Assembly (NCBI GenBank): GCA_001692895.1
Contig: KV748249.1
Coordinates: 434,001-498,000 of the forward strand
Reading direction: 5' to 3'
Source: Cenococcum geophilum 1.58
Taxonomy: Eukaryota; Ascomycota; Dothideomycetes; Gloniales; Gloniaceae
Length of the DNA stretch: 64,000 nt
Under the pieces are notes generated by a model that had not been told where the DNA came from, searched no databases, and saw only the letters and a program-made list of their open reading frames with translations. Below, one piece after another: positions 10,226 to 64,000 of this stretch. A program made the translations under genes and the position numbers. Each line of letters starts with the position of its first letter. Position 1 is the stretch's first letter.

Positions 10226-10297
10226 TCCCGCCGCGCTTGCAAACAAGTTCGCAAGCACTCCGTGTCTTTTTGGCCGAATGGCGACGTTGGGGCGGGA
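10226..10297. repeat. 72-bp G+C-rich patch bounded by TCCCGCC/GGCGGGA
   Basis: Inside the AT-rich, RIP-mutated Gypsy-2, this short G+C-rich patch starts TCCCGCC and ends GGCGGGA (inverted ends). It splits the integrase reading between the YKLEL block and the LLEPY block. It looks like a tiny later insertion that escaped mutation; origin unknown. Confidence 0.4.
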
Positions 10298-17914: not shown

Positions 17915-18000
17915 GGAATAGAGAAGATAGCGAGAGCTCGATTATCTATATTATACACCCCCCCCCCCTAACACGTAGTATTCAAGTTGAGAGAGGGAAG

Positions 18001-22400: not shown

Positions 22401-23090
22401 TAGCACTATTGACGATTAGCCAACCTAAGCAATAATTTGGCTAAATGAGTATTATATAGATCTATAATATAGCCCGTACGTTAAGGCAAAGAAGTAACTA
22501 TTTTCTTATTATATAGGTCCCTTAAGGGGAGTTCGAACTAGGCAAGAAGGTAAAAGTAGTAGTATAGCGAGCTACTATATAAGGACGCCTACTATAAGGA
22601 CAATAATACTAGGCTAAGGCTATAACAATAAACACCGTAAGAATAAAATAGTAGGGTAGGAAAACACTACTAGAAGGAGTAGGAAGGTATTTAAGAAAAA
22701 TAGACATAGTACTACTAGGTAAACATACCTATAGGCTATATAACTCTTTTAAATAAAAAGAGGTAAATATATTAGCCTAGTTATGGATAGAAATAATATA
22801 ACTTAATAGGTATCTATACCGCATTAGAGCGGTAGAATTAAATTAATATAATTACGGATAGGCAAGAAAAACAGTTAAATACTTTTTCTTTAGGTGTATA
22901 AAATGGACATTATATTAAGAGTAAATGCTACAGCAAATAGATATAAGAAGAGGCAGCTTATTCTTCTATCTTAGGGGAAAGACGTTAAGTGACTTTAGAT
23001 AGTGGATATTAAATATAGACGCGGTTTAAGCAATAGTAAAATACGTAATAGCTACTAGATAACTTAAGGCAGAATTAAATTAATAACCCG
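19430..23090 (+). pseudogene. LINE-B copy 1 ORF2 (endonuclease, RT, RNase H), degraded
   Basis: Read-through translation gives an APE endonuclease (VLRLPNRLV, VGDFNRH, YSLLPRGI), an RT palm (LLSILGKVLESIV, KGRSTK, FFNANLV, AFVDN) and an RNase H region with LITLGLRAEQ...AELAAILMAIRYL near 22270-22360. This is the domain order of Tad1-type fungal LINEs. The catalytic FADD-type box reads FVDN, a G-to-A change. No open frame longer than about 50 codons remains. Confidence 0.75.
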
Positions 23091-23427
23091 TCTACTACAG
23101 TTAGAAACTCCCCCCCCTCCTCTACGCTTTAACTAACCTATACTATATACCCTCGTGCTACTAGTAGATCTCGCTTTAATTGCCAAAGATAGGATACTAA
23201 ATACTTGGAGGAACAGCCCCCTAAAACTACCTGCTACTAACTACCTATAAAATCTTATAGAATAAGGTATAAGTAATACTAGGGAATACTAAATAAGGTA
23301 TATATACGGGCTTATATAAGAATATAGCAAGACTAAAGGAAGTGTAATTATGTAATATAGTACTAGTGCCCTTTAGGCTTAGTGCCTCTGGGCGGAATAA
23401 ACTTTATTATTATTATTATCTCAGTTA

Positions 23428-26400
23428 GAACCGATCTCCTAGAAAAAGGCTAACGCAATAGAGAAGATAGCGAGAGCTCGATTATCTATATTATATACCC
23501 CCCCCCCCTAATACGTAGTATTTAAGTTAAGAGAGGAAAGATAAAGATAATAGAGGGGGAAGGAGGCTTGTCGCGTTAATCGCGTCAGGAACGCGTTAAG
23601 ACAGCTAAGGCCTTTAAATACGATAGTTATAAGAGCGATATAGAAGATACGGTTTACGTAGTAGCAGTAGCCCCTAGGGTACCACGATTAAAGTATATAG
23701 GGAAAAAACTACGTCTTAAGGATTAGATAGGGTTAATAAGAAACCGCGTAATAGCTAAAAAGAGAGTAGAGTAATTGGTAATAATAGCTACTATAGCAAA
23801 CTAAGTAATAACTAAGAAGATAAATATAATAAGTATATAGATTAAGGTGCTAATTAACCTAGTTATATTACTACTAGGGGTAATAAAGGAATAGAAAGAG
23901 GTATAAGTAAACTAAATTAAAGCCCTTACCGAAATATTTATAGAGTAGATTAATACGCTTAAAGTAGAGGTTATAGAAAAGATAGAGGTAATCTAGACCT
24001 AATTGTCTAATATTTAAATACTACTAAGCGCGGATTCGTTGTACGCGGAGGTTGCCTATACGCTGCTAAATAGTTAACTAAGTAACCTAACGTCCTTCCT
24101 ATTAAGGAATACTATGCCATTAACTATCACTAATATGCTGTATTGTATAGTTAATATATCTAGAGTTAAAGAAGAAAATAAGAATAAAGTATAACCGGGG
24201 GTAATTAGGTAAGTAATTAAAAGTAGTATATATATAATAGAAGGCTATAAGAGCTGGCGCTACGTAGTAGTAATTAAAGACCCTAGGAACCCTATATGTA
24301 TTAGGATAACTTATAGGAATAAAGTTAAGCTCTAATATATAAAAGAAGCGGCCTAAAAAACCTTAGTACTTAGTGTTTAGGTGCTGCGAGACCAGCTCTA
24401 CCTAGTAAAAATTAATAACACTAACCAAATAGCAGTTCTTAACTAGGAAGGAAAGATTCGAGATAAAGTAGTAGAGGTGCTAGGAAAAGAGAATAATGTA
24501 TATATAGCCTAGATAGAATAGCTTAGTAAAAAAGACATAGGAAAGGTATATGGATTAATAGTTGTATATATTACTAAAAGTAGTAAGGCAGCACGGTTGC
24601 TGTAGGATTAATACTTTTATATTATAGGGGAATTAGCCTATATTAGAACCTATAAACCTAAAAGCGGTCTAATGTAATACTACTAGTGTTAGACACTAGG
24701 ATATAAAGTATTCGCATATATAAGACCGTAAGTATATACTAAATGCGCTTAAGAAGGACATTATTATAATAACTGCTAAGGATAAATTCTAAAGTGTATA
24801 CCTTGCGGAGGACCATATAAATTGTTTAGTAAAAATTGTTAAGTACTTTATCCTACCCGCTATATATAAAATACTTTAGGTACTTTAACTAAATGTCCAA
24901 AAGCAGAGTATAGTATAGTAGAGCCTAATAAACAATAAACAACTAAAAGACTTTAGAGTGTTAGTAATATTAGAGCTATATATATAGAAAACGGACGACA
25001 TAGTTATAACAGTCCCTATAGGACACCTAAATTGGACTAAGGTAATACCTACGGCCTAGCGTAAAAAGAGGTGGGCGGTATAGAGTATGCTATAGATTTA
25101 AAAAAAACATTAAGGCCGTATAGGTGCCAGTATAATCGGTAAACCTTATTATAGCGGTATTGCGCCTTCTTAATAGATTAGTACTGGTAGTATTAGTATA
25201 CGTTAAGGGAAAGAATATAGAAGCACTATAAGATATAATTAGTAAATTATACTAACTAATCTAAGAAATATAGAATAAGATAGGTATATAAACCGATATA
25301 ATACTTATAAGAGACTTTAATCGGCACGATTAGCTATAGGGAGGAAATAATATCTCGCCGGCGAGATAGGGAGAAGCTAACCCGATTATTAATCTTATAA
25401 GAGATTACTCCCTACATAGCCTGCTGCCTAAAGGTATAAAAATATAGCAAAATAGTAACTATAAAACAACGATTGACCTAATCCTAGCATTAGATGAGCT
25501 AGCATCTATAATAGTAAAGTATATTATATATAAGACAGAACACGGATCTAATTATAGGGCAATTAAGACGATATTTAATATTATAGTCCCTAAACGCGCT
25601 AAGGAATAGAGAATGCTTTTTAAGAATATACTATAGAATAAAATTAGGAATAGAATTGCTACCGCCCTCTATATTATCCTAATAGGTAGTAAAGTATAGT
25701 AGTAAATAGACCGGCTTATAGAGGTAGTGCTAGAGGTAGTCTATATATTAACTCCAAAATCTAGACCGTCACTATATATAAAAAGGTGGTAGATAATAGA
25801 CCTTATAAAGCTCCGCCGGGTATATACTTACTAGAGGAACCGGGTAAAGAACTAACGTTAAGTAGGCTAGATAGTACTAGAACTAAAGTAATAAGTAAAG
25901 AAGGCCTTAAAGGAATATTATAATATAATACGGAAATAGAAAAGGACATATTAGAACGACTTCTTAGCTAATAATATAAATATTTGGTAAGCAGTAAAAT
26001 ACCTTAACCTAAGCGGCAACTTAGCGTTTAATAAGATACCACTATTAGTAAGGATAAATGGATCTACTATAAAAGGTAAAGATAAGTAAGCAGTGGAGAT
26101 ATTAACTACGTTCTTTCCCCCGCTACTAGTAGGAATAGAGGATAAGGGTCCGCGGCCTTAACGAACGCTAATACTAATACCGCGTCTTATAATGGAAGAG
26201 GTAGAATAAAAGATGTTTGCGGTAAAGCCTTAGAAAGCGCCAGGGGATAATAGCCTACTAGCGATGGTGTAGAGGTAGATATGGCCGGTAATAAAAGATA
26301 GGGTTCTACTCCTCTTTTAAACCTTATTAAATAAGGGCGACCTTCCTAACTAATAGAGAAATGCCAAGATTATACCGCTTAAGAAGCCGAATAAAGGAAA

Positions 26401-35149: not shown

Positions 35150-35318
35150 CTCAACTCATGTCAGCCTCGTGAACGCAGCCTGACCTCTTCATGCCTCCTG
35201 AACAGCGATTCCTCTTTGCGACCAGCTCGCAACGATCTTAGTCTCAATTTCAGCAGTTCCATCATTCTACGACCTTCAGCATCCATGTCGTTTTCAATGC
35301 GGAACCCCTAGCGCGAGA

Positions 35319-38300
35319 ATGACGAGCTCACAGACAAGCTTACCTTTCCCGACTCAGCCTTGGGAGGCTGCGAAAGAAAGGTTCCTTGAGGGCCTCTCGG
35401 CGGCAGATAAGAAACGGTTTCAAGACGCCACGCTCGAAAATTTATTCTATGGTGCAAGTGCTGCGCAGAAAAAGCATGCCAAAGGGAGCAAGAGCTGGGC
35501 CATGCAGGAGAAGATCACCTCGTTAGCAGATGGAATTGAAGACTATGGAAAGGCATTGGATGTATATTCGAACGCCTATGGACTGATACTATGCCCAATT
35601 TGGGGCAGCATTCGAGTGGTCCTTCACATCGCTCAGGAAGCCGGGAGATTTCAGGAGAAACTTGTCGACATGTTCGCCCGCATCGGAGATGCGTTGCCAC
35701 AATTCCGAGTCTACCAGGATCTGTTTCGCAATCATGAGCGCCTTCTAGGAGCTTTATCAGCAGCCTACCTCGATATCCTACAGTTCTGTGTGCGGGCAAA
35801 AGAGTTCTTCGTCCGGACCAGGAAGACACCAAGTAAGTAACGTGACAGCATAGGTCAAGGGCGATACTAACATGACCAGTTCCGGCTTCCGTAGTGTGTA
35901 TGGGGGTCTGGAAGCATTTTCGTCAGGAGTTTGATGATTACATGGTGGCTTTTCGTAGACATCAGAAGTTGGTTGAGAGAGAAGCGCGCCTAGCCCATAT
36001 GATTGAAGCCGCCAAATCACGAGAAATCGAACTCGCGAATCGGGCTCTACAAGAGCGTAACGCAAAAATCAGCCGACGACACAAGCTACTATCATCACTG
36101 CCACCAGTCGATTATCAATCGAAACACACTAGGCTTCTTAGACTTCGACAACCGGGCACTAATACCTGGATCCGGAGTCACCCTACATTCAATTCATGGC
36201 TCGGCTATCCAACGTCTGATTGCTTGTGCTGCTACGGAATACCGGGCTCGGGGAAATCAGTACTAGCAGCTAGTATTGTAGAAGATCTTGAGGCACAATG
36301 CACGGAGAAGACATCTATCGTGTGCTACTACTACTGTGACTACGCGGATGCATCGTCACTGGAATCGGCTTGTCTAATTGGAAGCCTGATCAAGCAGATC
36401 CTAGTGCAACTACCTCTCGATACGTTCGACGAGAAGTTCTGCCGGTCTTTGGAAGGCAAAATCCCTGCTGCGACCCTCTCCGAGAGTCTCGCCTGTCTAA
36501 GCCGCCTTCTCAACGATTTCAGTCAAGTGTTCGTTGTACTCGACGGACTCGACGAACTTTCACGAGAAGCGCAGATTGCTTCTTTGGAGATTGTCCAGCA
36601 TCTTCTTCGTTCGTCCAAGCCCAGAATAAACGTTTACGTCTCTAGTCGTACCGAAGAGCTGCTTATCAAGGAAACCTTGGAAGCTCGCAAGAGTATCGAT
36701 CTCTCCACTGTCCAGGTCGGCGATGATATCGCAATATTTGTGGAGGCAGCCATCGATTCTGGTATTCTAGAGCATAATCCCGTTTCAAGAAAAGCAGAGA
36801 TGAAGCAAGAAATTATTCAAGCCCTAGTCAAAGGTGCCAACGGCATGTAAGTCGATCATGCAACATCCTCCAGTATACCCGTCGTACTGATTTACCAGGT
36901 TCCTTTGGGTCAAATTTCAGCTGTATGATCTCCGTGAGGCCCTTACCGAAGAAACAGTCCGGATGACTCTGCGTGCGCTTCCTCGAGATTTAAGCGAAAC
37001 TTATGCTAGGATCATCCAGAAGGTTTACCGCGACCCAGGAGGGGATCTCAAGATCGAGACGATGAGAAACGTCTTCCGCTGGGTACTATGCGCACGACGT
37101 CCCTTGCTTATCGAAGAGCTCGAGGAAGCAGTTGCTCTAAAACCATCGGACAAATATCTGCACACTGACCGGATCGCGACAGGTGCTGGCCATAACTTGG
37201 TTGGTGCCTGCGGCAATCTAGTAACCTACAATAGGAGCGATCGGACTGTAACTTTCGCACACTATACGGTCCATCAGTTCCTTTGCCATGCGGTTCGGCC
37301 TGACGGTCCCCAGAAACCTATTTGGTTTGAACGAGTCAATGCTGAGACAGAGATCGGTCGAATCTGCGTTGCATACCTCTCCTTCTCCGACTTCGAGACG
37401 CAATTGATAAAGGCGCCACCACCGCCTGCAGTCATGGATAACCAAGTCATTGAACAAGCTATTTGGAGTCAGGTCCCGTTGTCTTCGTTTGTCCGAAAGG
37501 CTATCACGCCATTTACCTCATGGGGTACTCCAACACACCGGCCTGTGCAGCGAATGACATTTGCGCTTCCGGTTCTCACACAGCAAGCTCATGATCTAGG
37601 GCGCAAGTATGCCATGCTCGAGTACCTCGTCGAGTTCTGGACATTCCACACATCACACTTTACCCGTGACATGGAATGTTGGACCTCCTTCAAACTTCTT
37701 ACCTTCTACCGCCAATTGAGTTTTGAGTTCCGACCTTGGCACACGAATCGGCGCCAAACAGACATGGCTCAGCATGAAGCAGACTTCAACTGGATGCCTA
37801 TGTATTCGTGGGCAATAGACCAAGGGATGCGATCTTTTCTCGAACTGATATGGTCAGATGCAGTAATGATCCGCGAACTTGAGGACTACTACAGTGAGAA
37901 GATTAGCAAGGTTGACGACCGAACAAACCTTGTTAAATGGGTCAGCGTCCGCGAATCTTTGACCCTAATTCTTGGCTACGACAAAATAACAGGTCTCGAC
38001 AACTTCTGGAGTGGAGGTTTCATCTATCACGCCGCTAACATGGCAAAGGATACGTCCAACCCAGGTACTCTCCACTTCATGCAATCCGAGTTGATACTGC
38101 GTTCAGGCTTAGACGCAACCAACCGTTTAAACACGCTGTTTGAAGAGGCTATTTTACTTGCTGTCAAGTACCGGGATGCACCGTCTCTCACTCGTCTCCT
38201 TACAGTCCATGTACAGACTATCGACCAATTTGCCAGGATTCTGGATCTCGTTGTTAAGCAGGGGCACATCAAAGAGTTTCCCATAACTACGCTGTTCCGT

Positions 38301-39056
38301 ATCTCATCCGACGATTTCCAGGGAGCACTCACTTGTCTAACGGACAACGCGTTGGATGAACTGGCTGCTTATCTCGATCAATGCATTCCCATCCTCATCG
38401 AGCCGGAGGGACTGAGCTGGACTGCCAAGAAGTGGGTGAAAGAAATTCGACCTTATTACAAATGGCTACTACTCGTTCGGACCTTAAGCTTCTCTATAGA
38501 CCGACATGTCCCTGTCATTCTAGATTTGCTGCACGATCGTAACATCGACCGGTTCATGGGTAAACACAAGTCAAGCAGCCTCTCACACGATTCGCGTCTG
38601 AAGTGGGATGCTGTCGCGGTAGCCTTCAAAAACACCCGAGCGATGCGCGATACAGGCGCGCCAGGCGACAAAGCTCAAAGAGAAAGCATACTCATGCAAC
38701 TGATCGAACGATCAGACTGCGATATGATGATGTTGCTTGACCACGGGATCTCTTGTCTCTCATGGGCAGCAGAATGCTCGATGACAATCCTAGTCCGCAC
38801 TATCATGCCACGTCATTCCCAAATTCTCGGAGACAGAGCATACATGATGCATGCGGTTGCCGCACTCTTGTCGGCAATGCGATATAGTCCCGATTGTTTA
38901 GAGATTATGCTGCAATGGCAGTGGCCCAGTGCCGCCCTGGACTTGGTGGTAGACAATGCGTTGGTGGAAACACTTCCAGCATCTCTCGGTATGAAGCTGA
39001 GAACGATGGCGGCGAAGCCTTCGGTGAGGAGGACTGTTCGCTCATTCATCAGATGA
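35319..39056 (+). CDS. DUF7708-NACHT STAND (NLR-like) protein, apparently intact
   Basis: Three exons (35319-35832, 35880-36846, 36899-39056) encode 1212 residues. Intron 1 (GTAAGT, branch CTAAC, ACCAG) and intron 2 (GTAAGT...CTGAT..ACCAG) both keep frame. Residues about 15-165 match the fungal DUF7708 N-terminal domain (WAMQEKITSLADGIEDYGKA, YGLILCPIWG). A coiled segment leads to a NACHT NTPase with Walker A GIPGSGKS near 291-298, Walker B VVLDGLDEL near 390-400, and GMFLWVKFQLYDL after it. The C-terminal ~650 residues are helical without recognisable ankyrin, WD40 or TPR repeats. Such STAND proteins are intracellular sensors in fungal allorecognition and immunity; that role is inferred from architecture. 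It is convergent with the DDHD gene. Composition is unlike the RIP blocks. Confidence 0.9.
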
Positions 39057-43105: not shown

Positions 43106-46100
43106 CTAAATTCTAATGTCGTGAGCGCCCTCAGTTCGCTTAAATACGCGGTGCCGTGCAAGCAATTGTGAAGTTATAAAATGGCTAACGTCTTCGTCAG
43201 ACCAGTAAGACAGATGGCTAGCAATGCTTGCAATGAGTGATATGTCGAAAGCCTGTACGAGCAGCCAATTAGCGCGTTTCCATGTCATAATCGGGCAAAG
43301 ACTGTAAGCAGCTTACCCCTTCCTGAATACTATAATCAACTCTCCCATTACTATTCAATGCCCTGACCTTTGATTCCTCCCTCTTCAGCTTCCTACCCTT
43401 CTTTTCCAACTCCAGCCATTCAGCCTTCTCACGCAAGTCCTTGTCTCCTTCGGCCTCCTGGCTCTCTCGTCGCTGTTGGAATCCAGAGTAGAGCGTCTGG
43501 AGTTCCGAGTCAAGAAGCGTAGGTGGGTGTTCCCCAATATCGCCAGCAGTAATTGGCTCCTCGCCAAGCCTGCGCCTTCGCTCTTCAGTTATAGTAGCAA
43601 TATCAGGTCCCACTGCAGACCCCGAAACAACGCCACCGCTGATGTTTGTGCCTGCTCCAACAGAAGTGGGCCCTCGAAATTGTTGGGTTGGGTTGGTGCC
43701 GAGTTTAGTAGCATCATCGCCCGTGATACCCAAGCTTCGATTGAGGATACTACTTGCGATTCCAGAGCTCAGACTAGACCAAAGCCCAGACACACTCTGG
43801 CCCACTCTTACGCCAATTCCAGTAAGGCCTTGTCCAACCGGAGCACCGAATATTCCCTTTTTGGTATACGGTAGCGGTTGGGGTTTTAGTGAAGACATCG
43901 CGGACGATATGAGGGGCTCGATTCGATAACTAATAGGATCAGTGGGATGAAAGATGTTGTATATCTGCTTGCACTTAGGCGAAGATGTCGCTATCTCTAT
44001 ATGGTTCGTGCTTGTGTTGTCTTGACCCGAGGGTGAAAGAAACGGATCATCCAATCTAGTGCCGGGTTTCTCCGAGGGAACAAAATGTGTCAATGAACGG
44101 CCAGTGATGGTATGGCCTTTCAGCATTTGGAAGAGACCTATTGGAGAACCCAGAGCATAGAAGTCCTCAACTTCAAAATCCAACTTTAGGCCGTCATCAG
44201 TCGCTCGTCGATGTTTCCCCCGGGGCTTTTCCTTCGTCTCGTCTTCCTGCCGACAAAGAATATCGAACATAATGGCTGACCCAAGAGAGTGACCAACAAA
44301 GCTAACCTTCCCATGGAATGAAGGGTTACGTTCCTTGAATAGTCTATAAATACGGTTGCACTCTTCAAGGACTATGCGTGATATGTGTTCCTTATATGCA
44401 GGGCTTTGGTACAGTAGAATATCAAGGGCGAGATCTGTAATTAAGTTGCGGACGGCAGGTACGCCCTCGATTGTGATATCATCAAGGGTGGGGTATTCCT
44501 GGTCCTCGAAGTCTAGGTCGCCTAAATCCTGCTCCTTCCGATTATGCCTGAGGCTTTGTTTCGGGAAATCGAGTTTATGCCGCCAGCAGATTGGGAGTAC
44601 TTGGATGCGACAATTCTTAGTCTGCTTGTCTACTTCAGAATTTAGGGCTTGTAAGTCAGTCGAATTAGCGTAGACGGCTTTCATTGTCTTCCTCATTGTG
44701 TTGACATCGTGTATAAAATTGATGCTCTCTATTCGTATTCCAAGCTGTTGTCCAATCCCGTGAGTTGTGAGAAGAAGATGTTCAATTTCTCGACCCTGCT
44801 CTTCGCTTGTCTGCTCTCTGTAGTCATCACGGATTTCTTTTTCGTCTCGTTTCCGGATCTCCTCCTCCTGTTGTTCAGGGTCTTCTGGGTGAAGCGACGC
44901 TACAAGGGTTGGTATATGCCGCTCGAGAGTCTTCCTCTGAATTTCCAAAGGAGATTGGACCTTCTCGTCATCGTCCTTTTTGGGCTTCCGAGGCATCCTC
45001 GACGTTCGGTCTACTTTGGCCTCCACCGCGTCATCCTCCTCATTATTCGAGGTCGAACCGGAGGTTTCAGGCCGATCCTCATCCTTTTCTTCGGCCTTTT
45101 TAGATAAATCAGCATAACCTCTGGCAACCTTAACGCCTGCGAAATGACCTCCACCAGCAAAACGTTGGTAGACAGTACTGCTCATTCGCGAGAGAAAATC
45201 ATCTGTTAATATCCAGGCAGTTGTCGCGTTCTGGTATGTTACGACTGAATTCATATGCGCGCCGAATAGACGATGGGTTCTAAGCTGATCTTGAGGAGGA
45301 GAAATACTGGCGGAATAGTCGACAGCAGCATCCCCGCCAGATGATGTTGCTGTGTTCACCTTTAGATTCTCAAACGATGATTTAGGCGTAATTGGGTTCG
45401 ATATTGACTGGCTGACTGCCTTTCGAAGGTCTTCGCCAGCTCTCAGAGATGTTGGCCGGGAACGCGGCTGGGATACAGACCGTTTTTCTTGCTGGGCCAA
45501 CCTCCACGGTTTTATCTTCAGGTAACCTTCTTCCAGCTGAGTTGCCAGATTCTCGTCACACGGTCGAAGCGTAGAGCTATCTACGAATACGTAAGCTGCT
45601 GGCCTAGATTAATGTGCTGGGTAGTACCAACCTTGATAAAACCAAGTGCCACGGCGAACCTCGTAAACCGGACCTGGCCAGTACGCGGGTGCCAATTCCC
45701 GTTCCTCTATGTCAACATCGAAAAGAAAGTCCTCATTAACGGGAACTTTCGTTCGTCCGATCTTGCTCTTCGAGTCCACGTCTGGTTCCTCTAGAGCATC
45801 TAGCCCATCATTTCCCAAAATATTCTGTCCCTTGAACTGTCTCAATTCCGCAGCTTCCGCTTCATCTGCAAGCTTCTGAAATGCGGCTTCTATAGCACGG
45901 GAGTCACCGGGAGAGAACTGTAACCATTTCTTCGGAGCTGAAGCGGGCTTGTCAGATGGGGGAGGTACGCGACCTGAAGGTAATGGTTTTCTTTTAGGAA
46001 TCTGGATATATTAGAGATGTCCGGAATTTACATGCACGGAAGTGATGCTTCAGTTGGATGTACGCAGTTGTACTTACATCGATGGCATGGAACCATTGCA

Positions 46101-49036: not shown

Positions 49037-51430
49037 CACCACCTCGTCAATTCCGGTTGTTAGCGCCTTACTAGTGACGCCTCTCGGGCGGAAATCCTCA
49101 TATAGATTAGTATGAGTTTCCCCGTCTTGGCAGTGAGCTTTAAAAGACCTTAATATTAAAAATTTATGAAGTTTTTTAAAACCAATGATTGTATAGTAGA
49201 TTGCCTATATATGAATATTTCTGAAGTCACAGTAGCTAAATGAGTGTTAAAATCAACGCTTAGCAATTAAACGAGTGTCCAAATATTTCCTCTAGGCTCC
49301 TGATCCCTCTAAGCCCCTAATCGTCCTCTAAGATCCTGATCGTCCTCCAAGCTTTCTACTGTCCTCTACCACTTGGTAGGTCCCCCTTCTGCTTTAATTA
49401 CTGCCTAAAGGCGTGCAGGCATAGAAGCAACTAGATCCTTAAAGTAGCAGGCCTCTAGATTCTCCCATTCAGATTCAATAGCTGCTTGTATTGTTTCTTT
49501 TGTCAACGGGCGAGGCTTCCACTTAGCTATTTAAGTCTTTATTACATTCCAAACGGCCTTAATTAGGTTAAGATCCGGGCTGTTTGCTGGCCACTAAAGT
49601 AACTTAATATCGTCTTCCTAGAACTTGGCGATAGTAATACAAGCTCTATAACAGGGAGCTCCGTCTATTTGCACAATTATTAGGGTATTTCTAAATTCAT
49701 AATTAGGGAAATATATACTATACTTAGCGTTATAGAAGTCGTAGAATTCTTTAAGCTTTGGATATATATAATCCAGGAAGCCCTACGCCGTAATATTGCC
49801 CCATTCTTCCTTATTCTAAAATAGTAGAGGCCCTTTTTCTACACCGTAGAATATAGCCCATACCATTATATAAGGTATGTTAGTAAACTTAGGACGGAGG
49901 CAATTAGGATAAAATCGTTTATTAGGTCTTCTAATAACATAGAGCCGCTAGTGCCTACCACAATACATAGCTACCTTATCTATCCACATAACTCTCCACT
50001 AATCCTCTTTTTAGAAGTAACGGTAGGCCAATATAAATGCTAACCGGGCGTAATGGTGAGCTATAGTAAGCTAAGGCTTTGTATAAGCAACGCAGCGTTA
50101 AAAGCCCTCCTTTTTAAGATATCGGGCGACTGTAGAGTCGGAACAAGGGACTCCTGTATGGAAGGAAAGCTCTAAGTAGGTAAGGCGACGCGCCCAAGCA
50201 TTTAACTCTAGGAAATCAACTAGTTGACGCCGAATTAGCGAGCCATATATAAGAGCATTGCGATAGCCACCACGTGTCGGGGTCTGTGCTTTATTAATAA
50301 TGTAGTAGACAGTAGAATATGGTTGCTTAACCAATGCAGCAATGCAAGAGATAGGTTCTTAAAGGTAGCGATAGAGGCCTTTAATTGTGCATCTTAGGGA
50401 GTAAGGAATAAGCGCTCAAGCGTTACTTTCCTAAAGCCGTCGGCGACGTTAAATACGTTCTGCAGCTCGCTCCTCCCGTTCCTATTCCTTACGTCTCTCC
50501 CGTCTATTAAGACAAGCAATTACTTAGCAAATGCGACGGTTTAGGGTAGTAGGTATTAGAGTAGAAGAACTAGATGCAGTAGAGCGAGTAAAGGGAGTAT
50601 TCGGCACAGTTATATTACTAGGTAAAGAAAGAGTAAATAAGCTAAAGAAGCTTCCAAAGCTAGGAAGGGGCAGTAGAGCTCCAGGAGGATTAGGTAAAGT
50701 AGGTTCTGGAGTTCCTTCCGTACGGGAAGGATCGTACCCAGGAGATGGCATAGTGGATACCTTTAAGGATAGAATCTAAAAGATTTTAGTCAGAACTTGT
50801 CGTAGGAATATATAAATTTAGTATAAAAAGTGGTAAGGATAGTATTAACTTATAACAGGCGCAGATAAACATCTTTATACTTAAATCTGTAGAGCCATCC
50901 AAAGTCCCTTATGATCGCGCTAAGACTTAATATTTACCCAAACTCAGAAACCTCATCTGTGACTACCGCCATTAATATCCGTCTTAATAGCGTAATTAAT
51001 ACATCTGAGGGCCTATTTCTAACTTCTGCGAAGTTACCTAGGACGAAAGCAAGCCATTTTTGAGCTGATTACCGCCGGAAAGGTCATTTGGACGCAAGAG
51101 CTGGCAATCGTCATGNTAGAGGCTTGAGGAAGGTCGTGATAAAGGCTAAGTTGAGGATTGTCACAAACAACGCGTCGGCGGCTTAGAAGAGGGGTAGGAA
51201 ACTAGAAGACGTGTTAGACTTCCTAAGTCAGGTTCCTCATCGCGTGGAGTTCACCAATACACCTGATCACGATGCGGCTGGCAGAGGCGTCGAAAAGCTT
51301 CAAATTGACTGTCAGGTGAGGTTGTTCGGCAGTCTCTTTCTGATATTCAGCTGCCAAGCCGGATAGACTGAATTTGTGTTAGTTGGTGGCTTAATCAAAA
51401 GCGCTAACAACCGGAATTGACGAGGTGGTG
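49037..51430 (-). mobile_element. Tc1/mariner-type DNA transposon, 2394 bp, inactive
   Basis: About 30-bp perfect inverted ends begin CACCACCTCGTCAATTCCGG and are flanked by TA at 49035-49036 and 51431-51432, the Tc1/mariner target. A transposase remnant occupies the minus strand. The ~900 bp beyond the transposase (50560-51390) has no recognised content and includes an N at 51116. It interrupts the HeLo-like/G-alpha gene. Its right TA is also the left TA of the MITE at 51433. Confidence 0.82.
49366..50334 (-). pseudogene. Tc1-type transposase, DD34E with catalytic Glu changed to Lys
   Basis: Minus-strand frames show a helix-turn-helix region (50334-50098, STVYYIINKA...STVARYLKKEGF), then VMWIDKVAMY near 50000, QIDGAPCYRACITIAKF with the second catalytic Asp codon at 49665-49663, and WPANSPDLNLIKAVWNVIKT. 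The residue exactly 34 positions after that Asp is Lys (AAG at 49560-49558) where Tc1 enzymes have Glu; GAG to AAG is a RIP-type change. Stops replace Gln, Trp or Arg at several points. The C-terminal end is ...EGGPTKW followed by TAG. Not functional. Confidence 0.8.
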
Positions 51431-51432
51431 TA

Positions 51433-51578
51433 CAAGGGGGTAACATGAACGGGTCAGATGGCCCGCCCTGCTAGTACAGTAACAAAATAAGCGAGTCCAA
51501 AGTGACATAGCGGGACTAGGTTATTTTGTTACTGTACTAGCAGGGTGGGCCATCTGACCCGTTCATGTTACCCCCTTG
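51433..51578. mobile_element. 146-bp palindromic MITE with TA duplication
   Basis: Two ~61-bp arms starting CAAGGGGGTAACATGAACGG are inverse copies with one G/A difference and a ~25-bp spacer. TA flanks both ends (51431-51432, 51579-51580). TA duplication implies mobilisation by a Tc1/mariner enzyme, but the termini differ from those of the adjoining Tc1 element. It can form a long hairpin in single-stranded DNA or RNA. Confidence 0.8.
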
Positions 51579-51810
51579 TAGACTATCAGTCGGATCCAGT
51601 CCAGATTAAGACAGATAACTTCATGGACTAACTGGATTAGGCAGCTAAAATTTGGACGATCAATCGGACGACGGTTAGCCTACGGACCGGCCGCTTAATC
51701 GACCACGCTGCTCAGTAAACACAATTCAGCCTCCTAATACCCTTCAGAGTTCGAGTTTTCAGGGACAGATTAGATTCATGGAGCAAATCTTCATACAAAA
51801 GATATAAAAT

Positions 51811-53722: not shown

Positions 53723-53730
53723 GGCCTCGT
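53723..53730. repeat. 8-bp target duplication of the 10.3-kb element (left copy)
   Basis: GGCCTCGT precedes the terminal TTATCTCAG. GGCCTCG is found right after the other end at 63994-64000, where the window stops, so seven of the eight bases are confirmed. Confidence 0.65.
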
Positions 53731-53955
53731 TTATCTCAGTTGACTCATCCGCTTCGCCAAGGAATTTAAGGAGGCGGCCACCCCCCTGCTCCCGCCCCAC
53801 TTCAGCGCCACAGGCCATCTTATGCAAACTTATAAGCTAATTAGATGGTCGCTCCAACTCATAGGTACTTATTAGCCAATAGAACGCCGCGCCACTCTTT
53901 GCCACCCCTGCCACCCTAATTCCTCTGCGAAGCGTTTAAGAGATTATGGGCGCGA
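53731..53955 (+). repeat. Left terminal inverted repeat of the 10.3-kb element
   Basis: This pairs with 63769-63993 on the other strand. The outer ~110 bp (G+C-rich, with GGCGGCCACCCCCCTGC and CCACTTCAGCGCCACAGGCC) differ at only a few positions. The inner part shows mainly C/T and G/A differences and includes the internal motif AAACTTATAAGC(C/T)AAT. Confidence 0.85.
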
Positions 53956-54339
53956 TTTATAAAGGCAGGCCAGCCTGCCTAGTAGACAACGGTTGTATCG
54001 CCTTTAATGTGGTATATTGCCCCCTAATATACCACCGCTTAACTCGCTAATACCTCTATTTAAAAGCCCTCCTCCTACTCTATAGAATCTATCCGTAATA
54101 GAGCCCAGCCGTGCCCTAAGTGGGCGTCACTCCAACTAAGACACCCCTAGCTGTCCTCCCTCTATTTCTAGCCTCTCTAGCTAGTTAGAAAATATTATCG
54201 AACTATCTAAGCCCTCCTCCTCCAATAGTGACAATAATGTAGGCGATAACTAGATGGGTAGCAATAAGAATAAAGCGCCTAAGCCTTTATTAAGGCGTTA
54301 TAGGAGGTAAAGGAAGCGCGCGCGAAGGTTATAAGCCGT

Positions 54340-56963
54340 AGTTAATACATTAAAAGAAGAAGGTTGGAGCTTTGCTTAGTTACTATCTACTTAGGTTAAG
54401 GCGGATAACATAGGGGAGAAGGGAATTGTAATTAAGCACCGTCGGTATAGTCGCGTTGGGCAACGGTATTAGGTTCTATTAGATGCAGTTACAAGAGACC
54501 CACAGTTAAGTAATATCCTATATACGCGAATAGAGTTATATACTATGGAGCTAGATCGCCTTATCTAGGAACTATATTTTACTACATTTAACAAAACGTT
54601 AAAAATTAAGGACTTAGACTTTAACGTCGCCTTCCGCTCTATATAGGATACTACCCTAAGATAGCATACAACCTTAATACAACTATTTAGCAATTAGCAG
54701 GCGCATAGGGCTAATTATAGCAATTAGAAAGCGGAGGACCAAAAGGTAGATAGCTAAGATGCGCTAGTAAGGCGGGCATATGCTATTATTAGTATAATTT
54801 GTTTCTCTTAGGCTAAAAAGCGGTCCAATTTCTTTTCTTTAGTAGTAAATATATATCTTATAGGCTCTAGTGTAAAAAGAAGGGTATTTAAGACGTTGGC
54901 TGGCTTTAGATTATACTATAGTTATTATTCCGCAAATTATACTATAGGTAGTATTACCGAAGAGGTAAAGATATGTTAGTTTTTATATTAGCACTATATA
55001 TCTATTAGCACCGGCCTTTTAGCCAAACTTATATAAACTCTTATAAACTTATAAGCCAATTAGCATGGCCTCTATAGACTACTGGCTAGCTAGGGGCTAA
55101 TATCTATAAAGGCATCTTATAACGCTAGCGTATGACCCCTAGATAGTCGTTATATATAATAATATAAACTTTAAGGATATAAAGCGCGATGAGCTGCTTG
55201 GTCACACGTTTATTATACGCTCCTTAATGACTACTGCTATTATCTATTATCCTAAACTGCCTCCATCGGGGCTATGTTAGTTAATATATAATCCGACTAT
55301 CCCGCTAAATATTAAGGACATCTACCGCTCTTCCAGCTTTGGCGACAAGTTATTACTATAGATTAGCCGTTACCTTATTACTAACGTAATAAAGGGGATT
55401 TACCTTGCTAGTATAGAGCGTATCTTTAAAGATAGTAATCTTTTCTCTTAGATGCTAAGTATATAATATATCAGCAATAGGAAGACCAAATTCTAGTAGT
55501 TTAATACTATTATAGAGGATAAGGGTACTATCTAGGGTACCTATAGCGTCTATAAAAGCATTTTCCTTAATTAGCTTGGTCTCCAGGCTCTAAATAACCC
55601 TTATAGCAGCACTACTCCCGACAATTTTACTAAGCAGCTCTGGCTTGCCCATAGTGACTAGCTTACTGCGCATTATATTAAGTCGGTAAAACAGGAGCAA
55701 ATTTATACCAGCCGCCCTTTCAACCATCGGGACTGGCTGCTTAGTATACCTATATAGTTCCACATTAAGATAAATCTATATAGTACTCTTATACGTACAC
55801 ACTTTACGCCTAAGGATAAGCAAGAGGAGGCTTATTATTGTCTACGGTCCAATATAATACTATAGAATCGCTCTATAATTATATAAGAGAATGCCAAATA
55901 CTATAAGTTGGTACCTATTATTGAACGGGGTTTTATAGCATATATAATCGCCCTCTTCTATACTACCATACAGCGTTAAGGCTTTAGAATTAGTATACCC
56001 AATTTATTTAAGCTATCTAACCCAGACACCCTATCTAACCCGTCTTTCCTTAAGTGTATTAAAGATACCACCCGGGCCATCGGCTGTCTTACTCCCAAGC
56101 AGTTCCTAAATATCATTAATAAGATCTAGCGCGACGCCTTTTCTTAGGACGCGTGGACGGGCGTAAAGTATAATAATGTTAAGTTTCGGACAATGTGTCG
56201 CATGCTTTAGGAAGTTAAGCTTCTACTTACTGTTTGGTATACTATTAAGCATGCCAATATAGGTATGCTGCGGTGGCTTATCAACCCCCTTATTATATTC
56301 TTCTTCAGCGCGTCACAGCATAATTACGGTTAAGAGATGCTATTCTATTAGTGGAATCTTATATTAGTTAATTTGCCTAAACTTTAGCACGCAATCCTAT
56401 CCTCTAGGTTAGTAAACTAGCTTAGAGCTCTAGATAAGCATAAGGCTATTAATCTTAGGCTAGAGCACTTAAATAGAAGCTATAAGAACTCTACTTATAA
56501 TATAGATATTATATTTAATCGAGTATACTTATTAAATATAACAGTTAGAATGTTATATAGTAAGATAGAAAATACGTTTAGTAAGAAGATATTAGGTACC
56601 TATATACAGGCAAAGGCAGACCTTAATATATTTATACTTACTTAGAATCTCTATTCTAGCAATTTAGCTATACCGCGGCAACTAGTATAGCTAGTAGGCC
56701 TACGCCTATTTAATTCTTATAATATTTTTAGCACTGGAGTGGAAGTTCTAATAAGGAAGGTTAATGAGTTTAACTAGGTCTATATACGGGGTCCGCGTTT
56801 AGTTGCTACCTCTTATCCTCCTTTAGATATAGAGGACTTAGCTAGCTTTGTAGATATATAAGACTTTATCAACGCTATTAGAGATAGGCTAGGTGATATA
56901 GAGGAACTAGATCTTACTTCTAACGTGCCTTCTGCTAGTTGGGAGGCTTTAAGTAGCCTATAA
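54340..56963 (+). pseudogene. DUF6589-type protein, RIP-degraded
   Basis: Ignoring stops, the plus frames read LKEEGWSFA near 54350, HRRYSRVGQRY near 54440-54470, then the diagnostic block FRTMCRML-stop-EVKLLLTVWYTIKHA, GMLRWLINPLIIFFF and SASQHNYG at 56185-56325. LEHLNRSYKNSTYNIDIIFN follows at 56466-56526 and an acidic C-terminus to about 56963. These match the DUF6589 proteins repeated in many fungal genomes (recalled family pattern, not searched). Function is undescribed; its position inside a TIR element suggests the transposase or a mobilisation partner. Stops fall at former Gln, Trp and Arg codons, and some frame changes occur in the first half. Confidence 0.6.
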
Positions 56964-59900
56964 ACTTAGGGGTATTTATACAAACTTATCGGCTAATTAG
57001 AGCGCGGCTTTCCTCTCTAGTTCGCCCTATAAGTCTTTATCTCCTCTATCCTACAAAGCCCCTCTACCCTAGCCCTATATATAGCCTCGACTATATTAGA
57101 TGGTCGCCCTATACTAGTCCATACTGGATAAGCTATGTTATTTTATAGTACTTCAAATCAATAATAAAGGTATTGCCGCTTCTTGGAGTTTAGAATGTAT
57201 AGGTTTGGCTTCAGGATTCAAACCCAAGGGTGGATGATTTAAAGTGTAAGCTAGGCTAATAAACTTAGTCCGGATATCTCCTAAACTTATATAAACTTAT
57301 TAGCTAATTAGGATAAGGCTAGACCCCCTAGGTTACTAACCCCGTTCCTAACAGCTCCTAGATTTTTTTTTCTTCCTGGCCTACCCCTAGACCCAGATAT
57401 CTCCTAAACTCTTATAAACTTATTAGCTAATTAAAGCCTACTACTTAGGGGTTTACTATACCCCTTAACTACCTACTACAGGCCCTAGACCCTAGGACGA
57501 TAATAACTTAAGAGGAGGATATCTAGGAAATACTATAAGGAGGAGGAACCGCCTGGCACTAGGCACTACTATATGCCCGTATACTAGCCACCCAAGACCT
57601 AAAATATTAACTCCCCTTAGACCACTACTAGGAAATAATAACTATAACAGCGATATTAGCATCGCTACTTCGTTTTATTCCTTGGCTAGGGTAGTATAAA
57701 CTACCATAGAGTATAGGACGCTTTAGTCCATTATTAAAATTGCGTAAGGCTACTACCTATATAAAACATCTTAACTAAGGGCCCTAGCCTTATTCTAATT
57801 GGCTAATAAGTTTATATAAGTTAATATAAGTTTAGGAGATCTCTAGATTGGGGGCCGGAGCCTACGTTAATGGGCCCTAAGAAGCTATTAGCTAGATAAC
57901 ATATCTTAACCTAACCCTTTACCTTATCCTAATTAGCTAATAAGTTTATATAAGTTTATATAAGTTTAGGAGATATTTAGAGGCCTATATTAGCGGAACT
58001 TAATAAAGAGTAGTAGCTAGTACCTATAAAAGACGTCTTAATATAGGGCCTCCACTTAAGCTATAATAATATCCTTAAGCCCCTAGCCTTATCCTAATTA
58101 GCTAATAAGTTTATATAAGTTTATAAGAGTTCGGAAGATATCCAGAGTAGCAGCAGCTTATATTAATAGACCCCCGCTAAAAGTAGAGGCTATCACCTAC
58201 GTACGGTAATTGCATACTAGCCTCTATCTATATATTAGTAATAGACGCAATTATATTACGTTATTAGAGTAGTAGGTTAACGGCAGAATAAGAAAGTAAA
58301 TTCGTTCTACCCGGAGTAGAGGCCCGCTATACTTACTCCACTTTTACTACAAGTAGAGGCCTATTATGCTTACTTATATATCTACCATCTATCTAGAGCA
58401 GAGGCCCGCCGTGCTTACTTACCTAATTTCCTACCTAGTAGAGGCCCACTATACTTACTTATTATCTTTCTCTTATTTTACTAGAGCAAAGGCCTACTAA
58501 GCCCGCTCTCTCTCTAGGGATAGAGGCCAAGTCCGCATATCCCAACCTATAGGGCTTATAACGCCTACAGTTAGGCCCACCTAAGACACTAGCTTCTTTA
58601 CCTATATAGGATCCAAACTAACTAGGTAAGGTTAAAGCTTATCCGCGAGGAGCCTTATAGTTAAACCCTTCTAAGACACTAGCTTTTACCGGAATAAGGT
58701 TAAAGCCTTCCCCACAAAGGGAGTCCAAAGACACGCCATACTATACTAAGTCCCACCCCCTTATCCCCTACGCCATTAATTCTATACCCCCAGCTCTAGG
58801 CGGAGGTGGTTACAGTCCCTTTAGTAATAGGGGCTGTAGGGGCGGAGCTAGTAATACCCGCCGGGGCTTAGGCTTAGCCCGCTTTAAAATAGAGCATCTA
58901 CTAAGGCGGGCCCTTATACAGCAGCGGGCACAAGCGTCCCTAAGCTTATACACCTACTAGACACCTACCCTAAAGTAGACCTAGTACTCCCAACTACCCT
59001 CCTAGTAAGCTAGGCACTAATCCTTACCATAAAGCTGCTTACCCAGCTCCGTTTCTATAATCCTCCTAATATAGGAGAGGTTCCTCTCACCGTTAGCCAT
59101 TTAGAGAGACGACCACTACTTGCCCTAGTAGACAGCGGTATAGCCGTCTATAATCTTACCCTAGAGTTACTAATTCTAAGGCAGACGCGGCTAGTTAGTA
59201 AGTTGGGTAGTATAGAAGCCTACCTAGGCGAGAGAAAGGGGAGGACCTAGAGCGGCGCTAGCGGTAGGGGTAGGCGGCTAAGTTGCAGGTCTATGTATAT
59301 ATAAGCTAATAATTAATATAATAGGCATTATAGTATATATACCCGGCGAGGCCGACTATGCTATTATTGTTATTATCGTCGCCGCCAAAATCCAGCAGGC
59401 GGTCATCGTTATTGTCGTTGTTATCGTCGTCGCCGCTAAGGGGGAAGGTGGCGCGATGGGGCTAGCGGGCGTAAGGAAAGGGGCAGGAGGCGGGAGAGGA
59501 GAAGGAAAAGGAGAAGGGAGGGCGCGCGGGCAAGGGTGGCGCGGGTAAGGGCGGCGCGGGCGAGGAGAAGGACTAAGAAGAATATTAGTATATAGGTCTG
59601 CTAAATAGAAGGAAGGTATAGCTACTTATCTCCTAGCTCCTTAAGATAGTTACTAACTCTTTAGGACGCTTAAATAGTTAAAAACTAGATAGGCTAATAC
59701 TTATAAAGGACGCCGGATAGTCTCTGACCTTAGTTAGCTATATAGGAGGGCGGCAGCAAAAAGGAGGATTTACTCCTTTTGGAGCGGGAAGTTTAGTAGG
59801 TATATAAGCACCTAAGCAGTAGGAGAAGATATTAAAGGCTTTTAAAAAAAATTATGGTGTTATAAATGTTTAAAGAGGAAGAGAAAGAGAAGCAAAGGTC

Positions 59901-60239
59901 TATTATAGGATTTACTTTACTATTAATAAGCTAAGGCGCTAGACCTAACCTAATATATACGATCTTATAGACCAATTACGCCATGCTAGGATAGACCTTT
60001 ACCTCCTTATATAGGCCTTATAATATCCCTAGCACTCTCTCTAGCAACTTATATAAACTTATTAGCCAATTAAAACGCGCTATAGGTTAATTAATACCCG
60101 CTATAATAGGAACTAATAGCTTATCTACTTAATAGGGCCTTATAATATCCCTAGACCCCCCTTTAGTAACTTATACAAACTTATTAGCTAATTAGGTTAT
60201 ACTAAGTGGCCCATCTATCTACGGCTCTGTTAAGAAGTT
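56964..60239. other. Non-coding middle of the 10.3-kb element
   Basis: AT-rich sequence with repeated copies of the internal motif (around 56983, 57285, 57405, 57790, 57925, 58090, 60045, 60170). Four spaced (T/A)AGAGGCC-type repeats with TTACTTA lie near 58310-58480. A low-complexity patch at 59340-59570 has GTT/GTC triplets and GGAGAAGG / GGGCGCGGGC purine runs. No coding block was recognised. Confidence 0.45.
58310..58485. repeat. Imperfect tandem units in the middle of the 10.3-kb element
   Basis: About four units of roughly 45-60 bp share AGAGGCC(C/T)(G/A)CTATACTTACT-like cores (58318, 58352, 58402, 58440). Unit differences are mainly transitions. A role is unknown. Confidence 0.4.
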
Positions 60240-63140
60240 TTCTTATCCCTTTAGCGTCGCCTTTCTAATACGTCTTACCCTTGTTCTTAGGGTAAATATA
60301 AGCACTATATCTATAGTTGCATCTCTCTCCTATAGTACTATATTTATATTTCTATCCCATTCCCGCAAGGCTGTCTGATATTTAGTAGGTAAATCCCCTT
60401 AGGTATTACCTTGTCTTTTCTAAGATAGCGTAAAAACAGCCCCTACTACTAAGGCTATATACGGCTAGGTAGTAGCTATATCTATAGGTTAGGAATTAAA
60501 GATAGCATCCACCTATAAATCTAGGATAATAGCTAGCTGTGAATTAAGAACGACCGTACCTTGGGAGTTAGGAATTGCAGTATTATACGAATTAGAAGTA
60601 GTGGCCTCCTAGAAGTCTGGAATTGCGGGATCCTAGAAGCCGGGCGTATTAATATTATAGCTCCCCTCTATAGATATAACATGCGGCATTATTGGTGTTA
60701 TTAGCCTTAAAATTAGCCTCTAGACCTCTTTAAGTACCTAGGCCGCGCGCTTAATACTATACGGGACACCTAGTAACGCGGACAATAGGCTAGATCTATC
60801 AATTCTACTAGTAACGTAGGTCCTAAGCGGTAAAGACGGCCCATTTACTACGCTCTGTTCCATTATACCCTATATAGCCTCTTATCTAGCAACCTATATA
60901 GCAAGACTATTATCCCGCCTCTAAATATATACTGCGTACTCCTCTAATATAGACGATCTAAGTAACTAGCGTATTAATAAGACCTCGCCCTTAGAGTCCC
61001 TAGTCCGCTAAGCAGCCTTTACCTATTACTTCTTTACTAGAGCCTTTTTATTGGTTAATCTAACTGGCTTAACTATACCCTTTAGCTGCTCGACTAATTA
61101 ACTGCTATAGGCCTCGCGATACTACTATAAGATAAGTAAGGGCGCCGCACTTTCTAGAGATTTGGCTATAAGTTTATCCCAAAAGGCGTTAGTCGTGCCC
61201 CTATAAAATAAGTATAAAAGCTACTAGCGGCACTCCTCGCCTAGAAACGCCGCTAATAGTATAGGAAATCGTTAGTATAGGCTAGCGTATATTAATTTAG
61301 CCTACTCGGCCATTTATATATTAAGAAGCTCTAACATAATAGCAGACTATATATCGGCCTATGGTTAATAAAGCGGCGCCGGAGCTATAGGGGGCAATAT
61401 AAGCTTAGGCACAATTAAGGGGTTATAATAACTATAGCATTAATCTACCGGGGCACGAATAATACGCTATAGTATAGCCGGCGGCAACCTGTCCTCTCCT
61501 AAGAAGGAAAGAAAGGCCTTTTAATAATATACTCTATTTACTATCTCTTTCTACTTAACCGGTAACTTCTTACGGCTTACTATTTTAGCCTTTATTTAGA
61601 ATAGACGGCCATCCTCTCTAGTAGCTGTAACTGCAGAATTATAGCTTGCGGTTAATTTCTTAGAGGCGATACTCTTAGTAATACTCTCGGCAACGCTCTT
61701 AGTATTGCTAATATTACTAGGCGTAAAGCTCTGTGTAAGTTGGCTGCGGGTATACTTAGCCAGCAAGCTATTGCGATTCCTCTAAGGCGCCTAAGTAAGT
61801 ACCTTTGCCTTAGGTGGTAGTGGTTTCCTCCCTAGTATATCTCCCCCCTTTATATTAAAGACCTAGTATAGAAGGAAAATATATCCTATACTAGTGCAAC
61901 CCTTTTATCGTCCGCCTTGACCGATTTGCTGCTATATATTAGCTAGGCTCTTAGTAATAGGAATCTTCTAAATAATCACGCGCTTAATATCCGGGACGTT
62001 TACACCTATACTAAGTAAGGTTATAGCTATTATAATTCTAATGCTAAATATAGCAGTTTTAAACTTAGTATACCGCTAAGTGCGGTTATACTTCTATATA
62101 GTAGTAGTAAACTCCTAGACTACAGTACTAACACAAATAGCCTTATCCACTATATCTATTAAATACCCCTTCTATAGTAACGCAGTCCAAAGGTATACAG
62201 CTACAGCCCGGATAGACAATCGCCCATTAATAAAAACTATTATCTTTGGTATCCTCTCCGGAGTAGGCTTCCTATTATTATTAACGTAATCATCTAATAA
62301 GAAATATAGGTGCTCCTATAAATTAACCTTTTTCCTAGGCAGGGGGTAGACAGATATTAATACATCTGGACGATCAATAGAAGTCCTAATAATCTCAGTT
62401 TGGTAAGAATAACGGCCGACTACTTAAAATCCGGCCTCTAATAGGATTAGCCTCTCTACCTTCTTATTAAGAGTCGCAGAGTAGGCAAACCAGACTATAT
62501 CTAGGCAGAGGATTATTTATAATTCGCTTAATATTATATAAGCCGGTCAAAAGCTCTCCCAGTCTTTAACAAGATAGTACTTATTAATTATAACTAGCCT
62601 AATTCGTAACTATAACTCTGGTTCTTTTAGAGCATCCCAAAAAGCCTTAGTTAATGCCTATTTAGGACTAAGTAGAATATAAGTATATACTCCCTCCCAA
62701 ATTTAAGTAATTAGTCCCTTCTCCTAACTCTAGGTTTTAGCATTAATAAGAACCAGGTTATATCCTTCTATCTTCTTAATATTATCTAATTGCTTATTAC
62801 CCAGCTTATTAAGCGGAATAATCTAAATAGTAATCTTGCCCGTTAAAACCGTATATATATAGAAGATTAGGCTTTTACTAAAGCCCATATAAGTAATTAG
62901 AAGGGTATCGCCTTTCCCAAATATTAACTAACGTAAGGTACGCACTTACTTATAGCGCGGCTCAAAATCCTTAACTAACGGACTAGTTTGGAGAATAATT
63001 CGCCAAAGATAAAGGTCCACAACTTTATATTAAAATGCTACATTCTCCAACCGCGCTGCCTACTGTATAACTAATAGTAACTCCTTTACGCGTAGCCTCT
63101 TAATAAACTAAAGTATCTCTGGGATAGAACTACGGTTAGC
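60240..63140 (-). pseudogene. RecQ-like superfamily 2 helicase, RIP-degraded
   Basis: Minus-strand read-through gives helicase motifs in order. Motif I is GFSKS (from GxGKS) at 62887-62871. Motif II reads INKYYLV (from IDECHLV) near 62592-62573, motif III FAYSATL near 62490, and a conserved QTEIIRTSIDRPDV near 62400-62360. Motif V is SIGVNVPDI near 62010-61980 and motif VI QQIGQGGR (from QRIGRGGR) at 61935-61907. Every motif change is explained by C-to-T or G-to-A. A tail of ~1.5 kb to 60240 carries coding-like blocks (MAE-AKLIYASLY, DKLIAKSLESAAPLLIL) with no domain recognised. RecQ enzymes unwind DNA 3' to 5'. Similar helicases occur near fungal telomeres; here it is cargo or machinery of the element. 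Confidence 0.68.
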
Positions 63141-63768
63141 TAACATATATATAACTAGTAGAGGTAGTAGAGGTGGCGGCGCGACACGAGCTTTATACCA
63201 GCAACTCTAAGTATCTAACTTCTTTAACTTCTTCTTTAATTTTAACCCATACCTTACTATTTCCTACCCTCTAATTAACTAATAAGTTTATATAAGTTTG
63301 CATAAGTTCGCATAAGTTCCTATAAGTTATTAAAATGTTATAGGGTATTACCGAAGTGCTCCAACGTAGGCCGAGCGCCCTAAAGGTGCCACAGTAACCG
63401 CGTCGCCTGCCAGAATATAACACAATGGTAGTATAGGTATACTTTAATTGGGTAAGCTAGTTATCATAGGATAGAAGAGGTACCTCTATAAATTTAGAAG
63501 GAAATAGAGTATTAGTAGTGGAGTACTACCATTATTTTAATGCGGCTGGTAGAGAGGGACCAGTTTTAAAAACGCGTCTTTAAACTTTAAGGCTGTATCT
63601 CGCCCCCTAATATAGTAGTTAGCTAGTTATAATTATTATAATTAAATAGAAGAAGAGATTATAATTTAAATATATCACGCACTAAGACCGTAGCTAGTAT
63701 ATTTACGCCGCTAGAGTTATTAAAAATTAACACGCGTTAGAAAAAGGACCCAGTTTACACTAAACGCG
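63141..63768. other. Subterminal region between the helicase and the right TIR
   Basis: It contains a cluster of the internal motif at about 63270-63335 (TAATAAGTTTATATAAGTTTG with extra CATAAGTT(C/T) units). No gene was seen. This is the likely promoter side of the helicase. Confidence 0.4.
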
Positions 63769-63993
63769 CGCCTATAATCTCTTAGACGCTACGCTAAGGA
63801 ATTTTTGGGGTGGTAGGGGTAGTAGAGGGTAGCGTGGCATTCTATTAGCTAATAAGTACCCATGAGTTAGAGCGACTATTTGATTGGCTTATAAGTTTGT
63901 ATAAGATGGCCTGTGGCGCTGAAGTGGGGCGGGAGCAGGGGGGTGGCCGCCTCCTCAAATTCCTCGGCGAAGCGGATGAGTCAACTGAGATAA
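63769..63993 (-). repeat. Right terminal inverted repeat of the 10.3-kb element
   Basis: This is the inverse of 53731-53955. It includes AAACTGGGTCC (inverse orientation near 63750) just inside, a block shared with the small element at 29080-29092. Confidence 0.85.
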
Positions 63994-64000
63994 GGCCTCG
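63994..64000. repeat. Right target duplication, cut by the window end
   Basis: GGCCTCG matches the first seven bases of 53723-53730. The eighth base (expected T) lies outside the window. Confidence 0.6.

Follow-up and report, generated by a model that had tools for sequence, protein, structure and literature searches.

Background

The described transposons closest to the elements reported here belong to AcademH, a lineage of the Academ superfamily (Kojima 2020) treated in PMC10045372 and PMC10799480. In the passages of PMC10045372 that treat these lineages, AcademH, tied to a helicase, makes 9- or 10-bp target-site duplications, and AcademX, tied to a nuclease, makes 3 or 4 bp. The AcademH-derived domains given in PMC10799480 include DEAD and Helicase_C, and the lineage is placed there in Ascomycota, Basidiomycota and Mucoromycota.

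We analysed a 64,000-nt stretch of the Cenococcum geophilum genome (C74:434001-498000, hereafter the window) and searched the genome (177.19 Mb, 162 contigs) for relatives of an element at its right end. The elements fall into families that we label A to D for this analysis, the window element being family A. This element is probably a RIP-inactivated AcademH-type (AcademH-like) terminal inverted repeat (TIR) DNA transposon, with DUF6589 as its transposase and a helicase as partner, and we infer its Academ lineage from the comparisons below.

The window element

A complete TIR element occupies positions 53731-63993 of the window (10,263 bp) and its borders are exact: TTATCTCAG begins at 53731, the reverse complement of TTATCTCAG stops at 63993 and both tips read TTATCTCAGTTGACTC. 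The arms match over 189 nt at 90% without gaps, or over 224/227 nt at 88% with gaps (∼225 bp). They are flanked by an exact 8-bp target-site duplication, GGCCTCGT, whose right copy is completed by the T at base 64001, read from the adjoining stretch. The first-pass annotation had proposed a complete element with these borders and an 8-bp duplication to be checked at base 64001; both proposals were borne out, the second also by duplications around further family-A copies. The features of the element are as follows.

53723-53730, no strand: left target-site duplication GGCCTCGT, 8 bp (direct reading)
53731-53954, plus strand: left TIR with tip TTATCTCAGTTGACTC (inverted-arm alignment)
55146-56591, plus strand: DUF6589 gene remnant, probable transposase (PF20231 profile and tblastn)
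53826-63898, both strands: 12 copies of AAACTTATWAGCYAATTA with at most two mismatches, 2 of the 12 in the TIRs
61899-62939, minus strand: RecQ-like helicase gene remnant (tblastn to the open family-B helicase)
63767-63993, minus strand: right TIR (inverted-arm alignment)
63994-64000, no strand: right target-site duplication, 7 of its 8 bases within the window (full: 63994-64001; direct reading)

On the plus strand, the PF20231 (DUF6589) profile matched positions 55356-56489 (E 1.1e-35), a reading interrupted by 19 stops, and tblastn aligned the same remnant with residues 346-835 of an open family-B protein (E 1.1e-24). The helicase remnant on the minus strand aligns with the open family-B helicase over residues 112-472 of the latter (tblastn E 3.3e-22), and a weaker helicase reading frame could be traced over ∼60240-63239, with 61 stops in the read-through frame. 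The two genes had been described as divergently encoded, but instead they point towards each other. The TA/AT ratio is 1.72 in the element versus 0.91 at window positions 29001-53000, and (CA+TG)/(AC+GT) is 0.55 versus 1.13. The window copy has been inactivated by strongly RIP-like mutation and both of its genes are broken.

Duplications of 8 bp flank all three family-A insertions with readable sites (window, C53 and C52). The second copy (C53:556278-572846) is 89-90% identical, carries ∼6 kb of inserted sequence and is flanked by ACAGAAGG; its duplication alone can be read as 9 bp if the left tip starts one base later, which the other two do not allow. On C52, a 1.6-kb deletion derivative is flanked by TGTCAAAC, and a further long copy on C36 has lost its first ∼200 bp.

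Elsewhere in the window, a near-perfect hairpin at 51428-51583 (71-nt arms, 94% complementary, 14 nt apart) is a possible foldback element, and inverted arms at 6163-6548 and 11733-12130 (76-86%) perhaps delimit another TIR element (6163-12130). The AT-rich region 17917-25397 contains direct repeats spaced 5540-5541 bp apart and 90-92% identical (17917-18216 with 23457-23756, and 19557-19856 with 25098-25397). Adjacent open frames at 35202-39056 on the plus strand, with DUF7708, NPHP3_N/NACHT and GPIID_WHD domains, resemble a fungal NLR-type gene, and a DDHD-domain open frame at 43269-45608 on the minus strand (E 9.7e-63) is likely a host gene.

Open relatives in the same genome

Eight DUF6589 matches without stops were found, with 102 of 274 candidates scored, so that DUF6589 counts are lower bounds. 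Seven of the eight lie at contig ends, and in all seven terminal stretches that we read, the contig breaks inside the element's own ORFs, in near-identical copies: C9, C42, C74 and C149 start at one identical base within the DUF6589 ORF and C88 ends within it, while the end of C41 and the start of C43 fall on a single base of the helicase ORF. C70:90-2735 is listed with these contigs broken in near-identical family-B copies. Since contigs break inside such copies, recent family-B insertions are under-counted.

Family B measures 6443 bp, taken across two contigs. In it, a 957-codon DUF6589 stop-to-stop frame faces an 883-codon helicase frame across 295 bp; these were the only long open frames found in it, and the open genes are present on several contigs. 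Its tips are TTGACTCAGCATGCTCAGACCA on the left and TTGTCTCAGCATGCTCAGACCA at the opposite end. Ten complete copies, all internal to contigs, show a 9-bp duplication once the tip positions are fixed (10/10; eight exact, two with one C/T mismatch). The longest exact word shared by the two flanks measured 9 in five copies and 6 in both mismatched ones; two others gave 10 and one gave 12, these longer words running by chance into tip bases. A 1.4-kb derivative is flanked by GGCCACGCA, and in a second derivative, L059 (C3:2531817-2533323), the left end is disrupted. CGCGAACAA stands beside the family-B ends of both C43 and C88, which probably represent opposite sides of a single insertion; this insertion is left out of the duplication count.

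In family C (C75:754919-765805, 10,887 bp), the helicase frame is open and the DUF6589 gene is split into two open pieces. The element lies within the left TIR of a B copy, where the duplication CAAGAAACA flanks it, and B sequence therefore supplies the empty site. Family D was found at C40:442804-453938 (duplication AGAGTTCGC) and, within a B TIR, at C4:3986509-3997599 (duplication GAAACCGAT). Families B-D thus have 9-bp duplications in 14 of the 15 insertions examined, the fifteenth being L059 with its disrupted left end.

The C and D elements in left TIRs of B copies lie a few bases apart (CAAGAAACA, GAAACCGAT), and in a third B-derived sequence, L059, GAAACCGAT again borders a family-D end. 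These clustered insertions may reflect either a target preference or a copied composite.

To what extent the two genes travel together can be read from their neighbourhoods. Among 51 scored B-type helicase matches, 33 have a convergent DUF6589 match within 15 kb, 1 has a divergent match as the nearest and 17 have none. The corresponding numbers for C/D-type helicases (n = 44, within 20 kb) are 19, 1 and 24; the sample was derived from the family-C helicase search, from whose 68 rows 13 B-copy rows were removed, 6 second fragments dropped and 5 split genes merged. In the single divergent C/D case (C75), the nearest match belongs to a neighbouring B copy and the element's own DUF6589 gene is convergent. 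Helicase matches that lack a DUF6589 neighbour are partly explained by the scoring of 102 of the 274 candidates. The pair recurs in families that are ∼27-52% identical, and each of the four families studied in detail has the RecQ-like helicase. The expectation that both genes would recur within the same kind of TIRs was therefore confirmed in three further families of this genome, which is the source of all our fungal data; among 314 pattern-matched viral-contig and 57 genome-contig stretches from other collections, no relative was confirmed.

The two proteins and a proposed mechanism

The helicase scores above the Pfam cut-offs for DEAD and Helicase_C in families B and C. In the PDB it is closest to RecQ, WRN and BLM; among NCBIfam models the RecQ family scores best (E 5.4e-30), though under that model's cut-off. 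Family C also shows a RecQ zinc-binding match (E 3.1e-4), likewise under the cut-off.

For two intact DUF6589 proteins, a Pfam search with HMMER filters on returned only PF20231 at E ≤ 10, and searches of DUF6589 gave no NCBIfam match and no credible PDB chain match. A fold predicted from the window's broken protein alone had a mean pLDDT of 31.9. Ten aligned copies retain D350 (YDNFDY), D510 (YGDQKTA) and E742 (NYxxEML; D/N in family D) when D-to-N changes by RIP are allowed. Further acidic columns are equally well kept, and the triad is therefore put forward as a proposal. DUF6589 is probably a DDE/D-type transposase, in line with the earlier suggestion of a transposase, which we regard as likely. 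Text searches found no literature naming DUF6589, and in the literature covered by these narrow searches the DUF6589-helicase pair is undescribed.

We propose that the DUF6589 transposase would cut at TTRHCTCAG tips and that the cut tips would be joined to target strands staggered by 8 bp in family A or 9 bp in families B-D. The convergent RecQ-like helicase might open the transposon ends or the target, or unwind and resolve intermediates. The borders, the duplications, the recurrence of the convergent pair within TIRs and the recent copies with both genes open are direct observations from which this scheme starts; we infer the action of the helicase in transposition and the catalytic residues of DUF6589.

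A dispersed 8-bp motif in families B-D

The usual view is that recognition of TIR transposons takes place at their ends or close by. In family B, ATATCCGC occurs 26 times in 6.4 kb, compared with a mean of 0.29 and a maximum of 3 in first-order random sequences (n = 200), and it is absent from 9.4 kb of family-B flank. Family C has 30 copies in 10.9 kb, where random sequences average 0.41 and never exceed 3; its 5.9-kb left flank contains 2, and the 64-kb window 3. In family D (L028, the C4 copy) we counted 26 in the 8.6 kb read, and stretches L029 (8.0 kb) and L030 (6.5 kb) have 20 each. The motif is absent from family A and from the C23 copy.

The ATATCCGC sites lie on both strands and within genes, including all four open frames tested, which contain 11, 8, 6 and 5 sites against shuffle means of 1.14, 1.20, 0.77 and 0.55. 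In each of the four ORFs, none of 2000 synonymous shuffles that preserved protein and codon usage reached the observed count. Twelve family-C sites fall in aligned coding sequence: two coincide exactly with B sites (in DUF6589), two are within 3 residues of one (in the helicase) and eight lie elsewhere. The 1.4-kb B derivative retains six. The best reading of these counts is that selection on the DNA itself maintains ATATCCGC in families B-D, and the motif looks like a self-recognition code of these elements. More tentatively, it is possible that ATATCCGC is a lineage-specific code, placed every 250-360 bp on average on both strands and in both genes and selected at the DNA level, which the elements' own DUF6589/RecQ machinery reads to mark self-DNA along its length. 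The sites could, for example, serve to load the machinery that would unwind the whole element if transposition were replicative, in a peel-and-paste manner. Close inverted ATATCCGC pairs number 336 genome-wide versus 88 for a reversed control pattern; these pairs were counted irrespective of element, and the motif may not be confined to families B-D.

The window copy of family A carries its own repeated motif, AAACTTATWAGCYAATTA, whose 12 occurrences (shuffles expect 0.11) are all inside the element, the rest of the window being free of it; several are part of local 41-74-nt duplications. There are 11 in the C53 copy, but the 1.6-kb A derivative lacks the motif altogether, which speaks against a need for AAACTTATWAGCYAATTA in cis. 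Among the literature matches listed for ATATCCGC and GCGGATAT, none was on transposons by title, and narrow text searches found no published report of the dispersed ATATCCGC code.

Classification of the elements

AcademH is the best filing because published AcademH elements combine a helicase with 9-10-bp duplications. DEAD and Helicase_C domains lie inside the elements of families B and C, with the window remnant recognised by tblastn, and the 9-bp duplications of families B-D fall within the AcademH range. The 3 or 4 bp of AcademX do not occur, all duplications being 8 or 9 bp. Family A agrees with AcademH in its genes and tips, but since its 8 bp lie outside the published 9-10 bp, it is called 'AcademH-like' and is not filed outright. 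The first-pass annotation had itself drawn the AcademH comparison, which our results support. Its statement that no standard fungal element has this pairing is now doubtful, as AcademH, in the published descriptions cited here, has the helicase and the 9-10-bp duplications that fit families B-D. It had also counted the placement of both proteins in an already classified superfamily against its own proposal; that placement is probable, though short of certain. The element is of a known or near-known kind, with a duplication length unusual for that kind.

The main competing explanation is that DUF6589 elements form a separate DDE superfamily outside Academ, which gained a RecQ helicase independently and resembles AcademH by convergence. 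The 8-bp duplications of family A, beyond the AcademH range as published, would fit such an origin, as would the match of DUF6589 to its own Pfam family only and its absence by name from the literature found. However, an uncatalogued Academ transposase would likewise show no Pfam name, and helicase type, gene number and the 9-bp duplications of families B-D agree with AcademH as described, so we consider a separate superfamily unlikely. A hAT, KDZ or MULE element with two passenger genes was suggested by the 8-bp duplication of the window family, as Zisupton and most hAT elements are described as making 8 bp (PMC12730594) and MuDR-related elements 4-10 bp (PMC10045372). Against this, neither intact DUF6589 protein matches such a transposase in Pfam at E ≤ 10, the long open frames found in family B are DUF6589 and the helicase only, and this pair recurs across diverged families. 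The hAT/KDZ lead of the first-pass annotation thus finds no profile support, and this is the least probable explanation of all.

A telomere-associated helicase element captured between TIRs is also very improbable. Subtelomeric RecQ-like genes are common in fungi according to PMC4522978 and PMC5576322, and our first open copies were found at contig ends, but 7/7 terminal stretches end inside element ORFs, complete B copies sit inside contigs and the window copy is more than 360 kb from either contig end. We therefore reject telomere linkage of the open copies, whose terminal positions are assembly breaks, and the suggested link to telomere-associated helicases is left without support.

With AcademH-type elements as the preferred reading, DUF6589, an unassigned Pfam family, probably functions as the transposase of TIR elements that bear a helicase, and in one genome recent copies in which both genes are open coexist with old, mutated ones. 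The one-base shift in target-cut spacing (8 versus 9) between sister families of one architecture offers a handle on what determines the distance between the cuts. A testable question also follows from the dispersed 8-bp code: are certain eukaryotic DNA transposons marked from end to end for the helicase that they encode?

Comparison with described systems

Subtelomeric RecQ-like helicase genes, as described from Magnaporthe, Zymoseptoria and Ustilago, are likewise fungal, repetitive and RecQ-like. In contrast, the helicase here is part of TIR elements that are dispersed and flanked by target duplications, and DUF6589 is its fixed partner. DTX-chim_G199 of Colletotrichum higginsianum also combines RecQ-type helicase domains with transposase-like motifs in a fungal repeat, but it is reported from seven subtelomeres with HTH and DDE motifs, and is likened to our elements by its description only (PMC5576322). 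KDZ and hAT elements share the 8-bp duplications of the window family; unlike them, DUF6589 lies outside their Pfam models, the sister families duplicate 9 bp, and the accounts cited here describe no helicase partner for them. AcademH, as published, resembles families B-D as a fungal TIR DNA transposon with a DEAD/Helicase_C helicase and duplications that include 9 bp. The passages describing it make no mention of the dispersed ATATCCGC code of these families, and its published 9-10 bp differ from the 8 bp of the window family.
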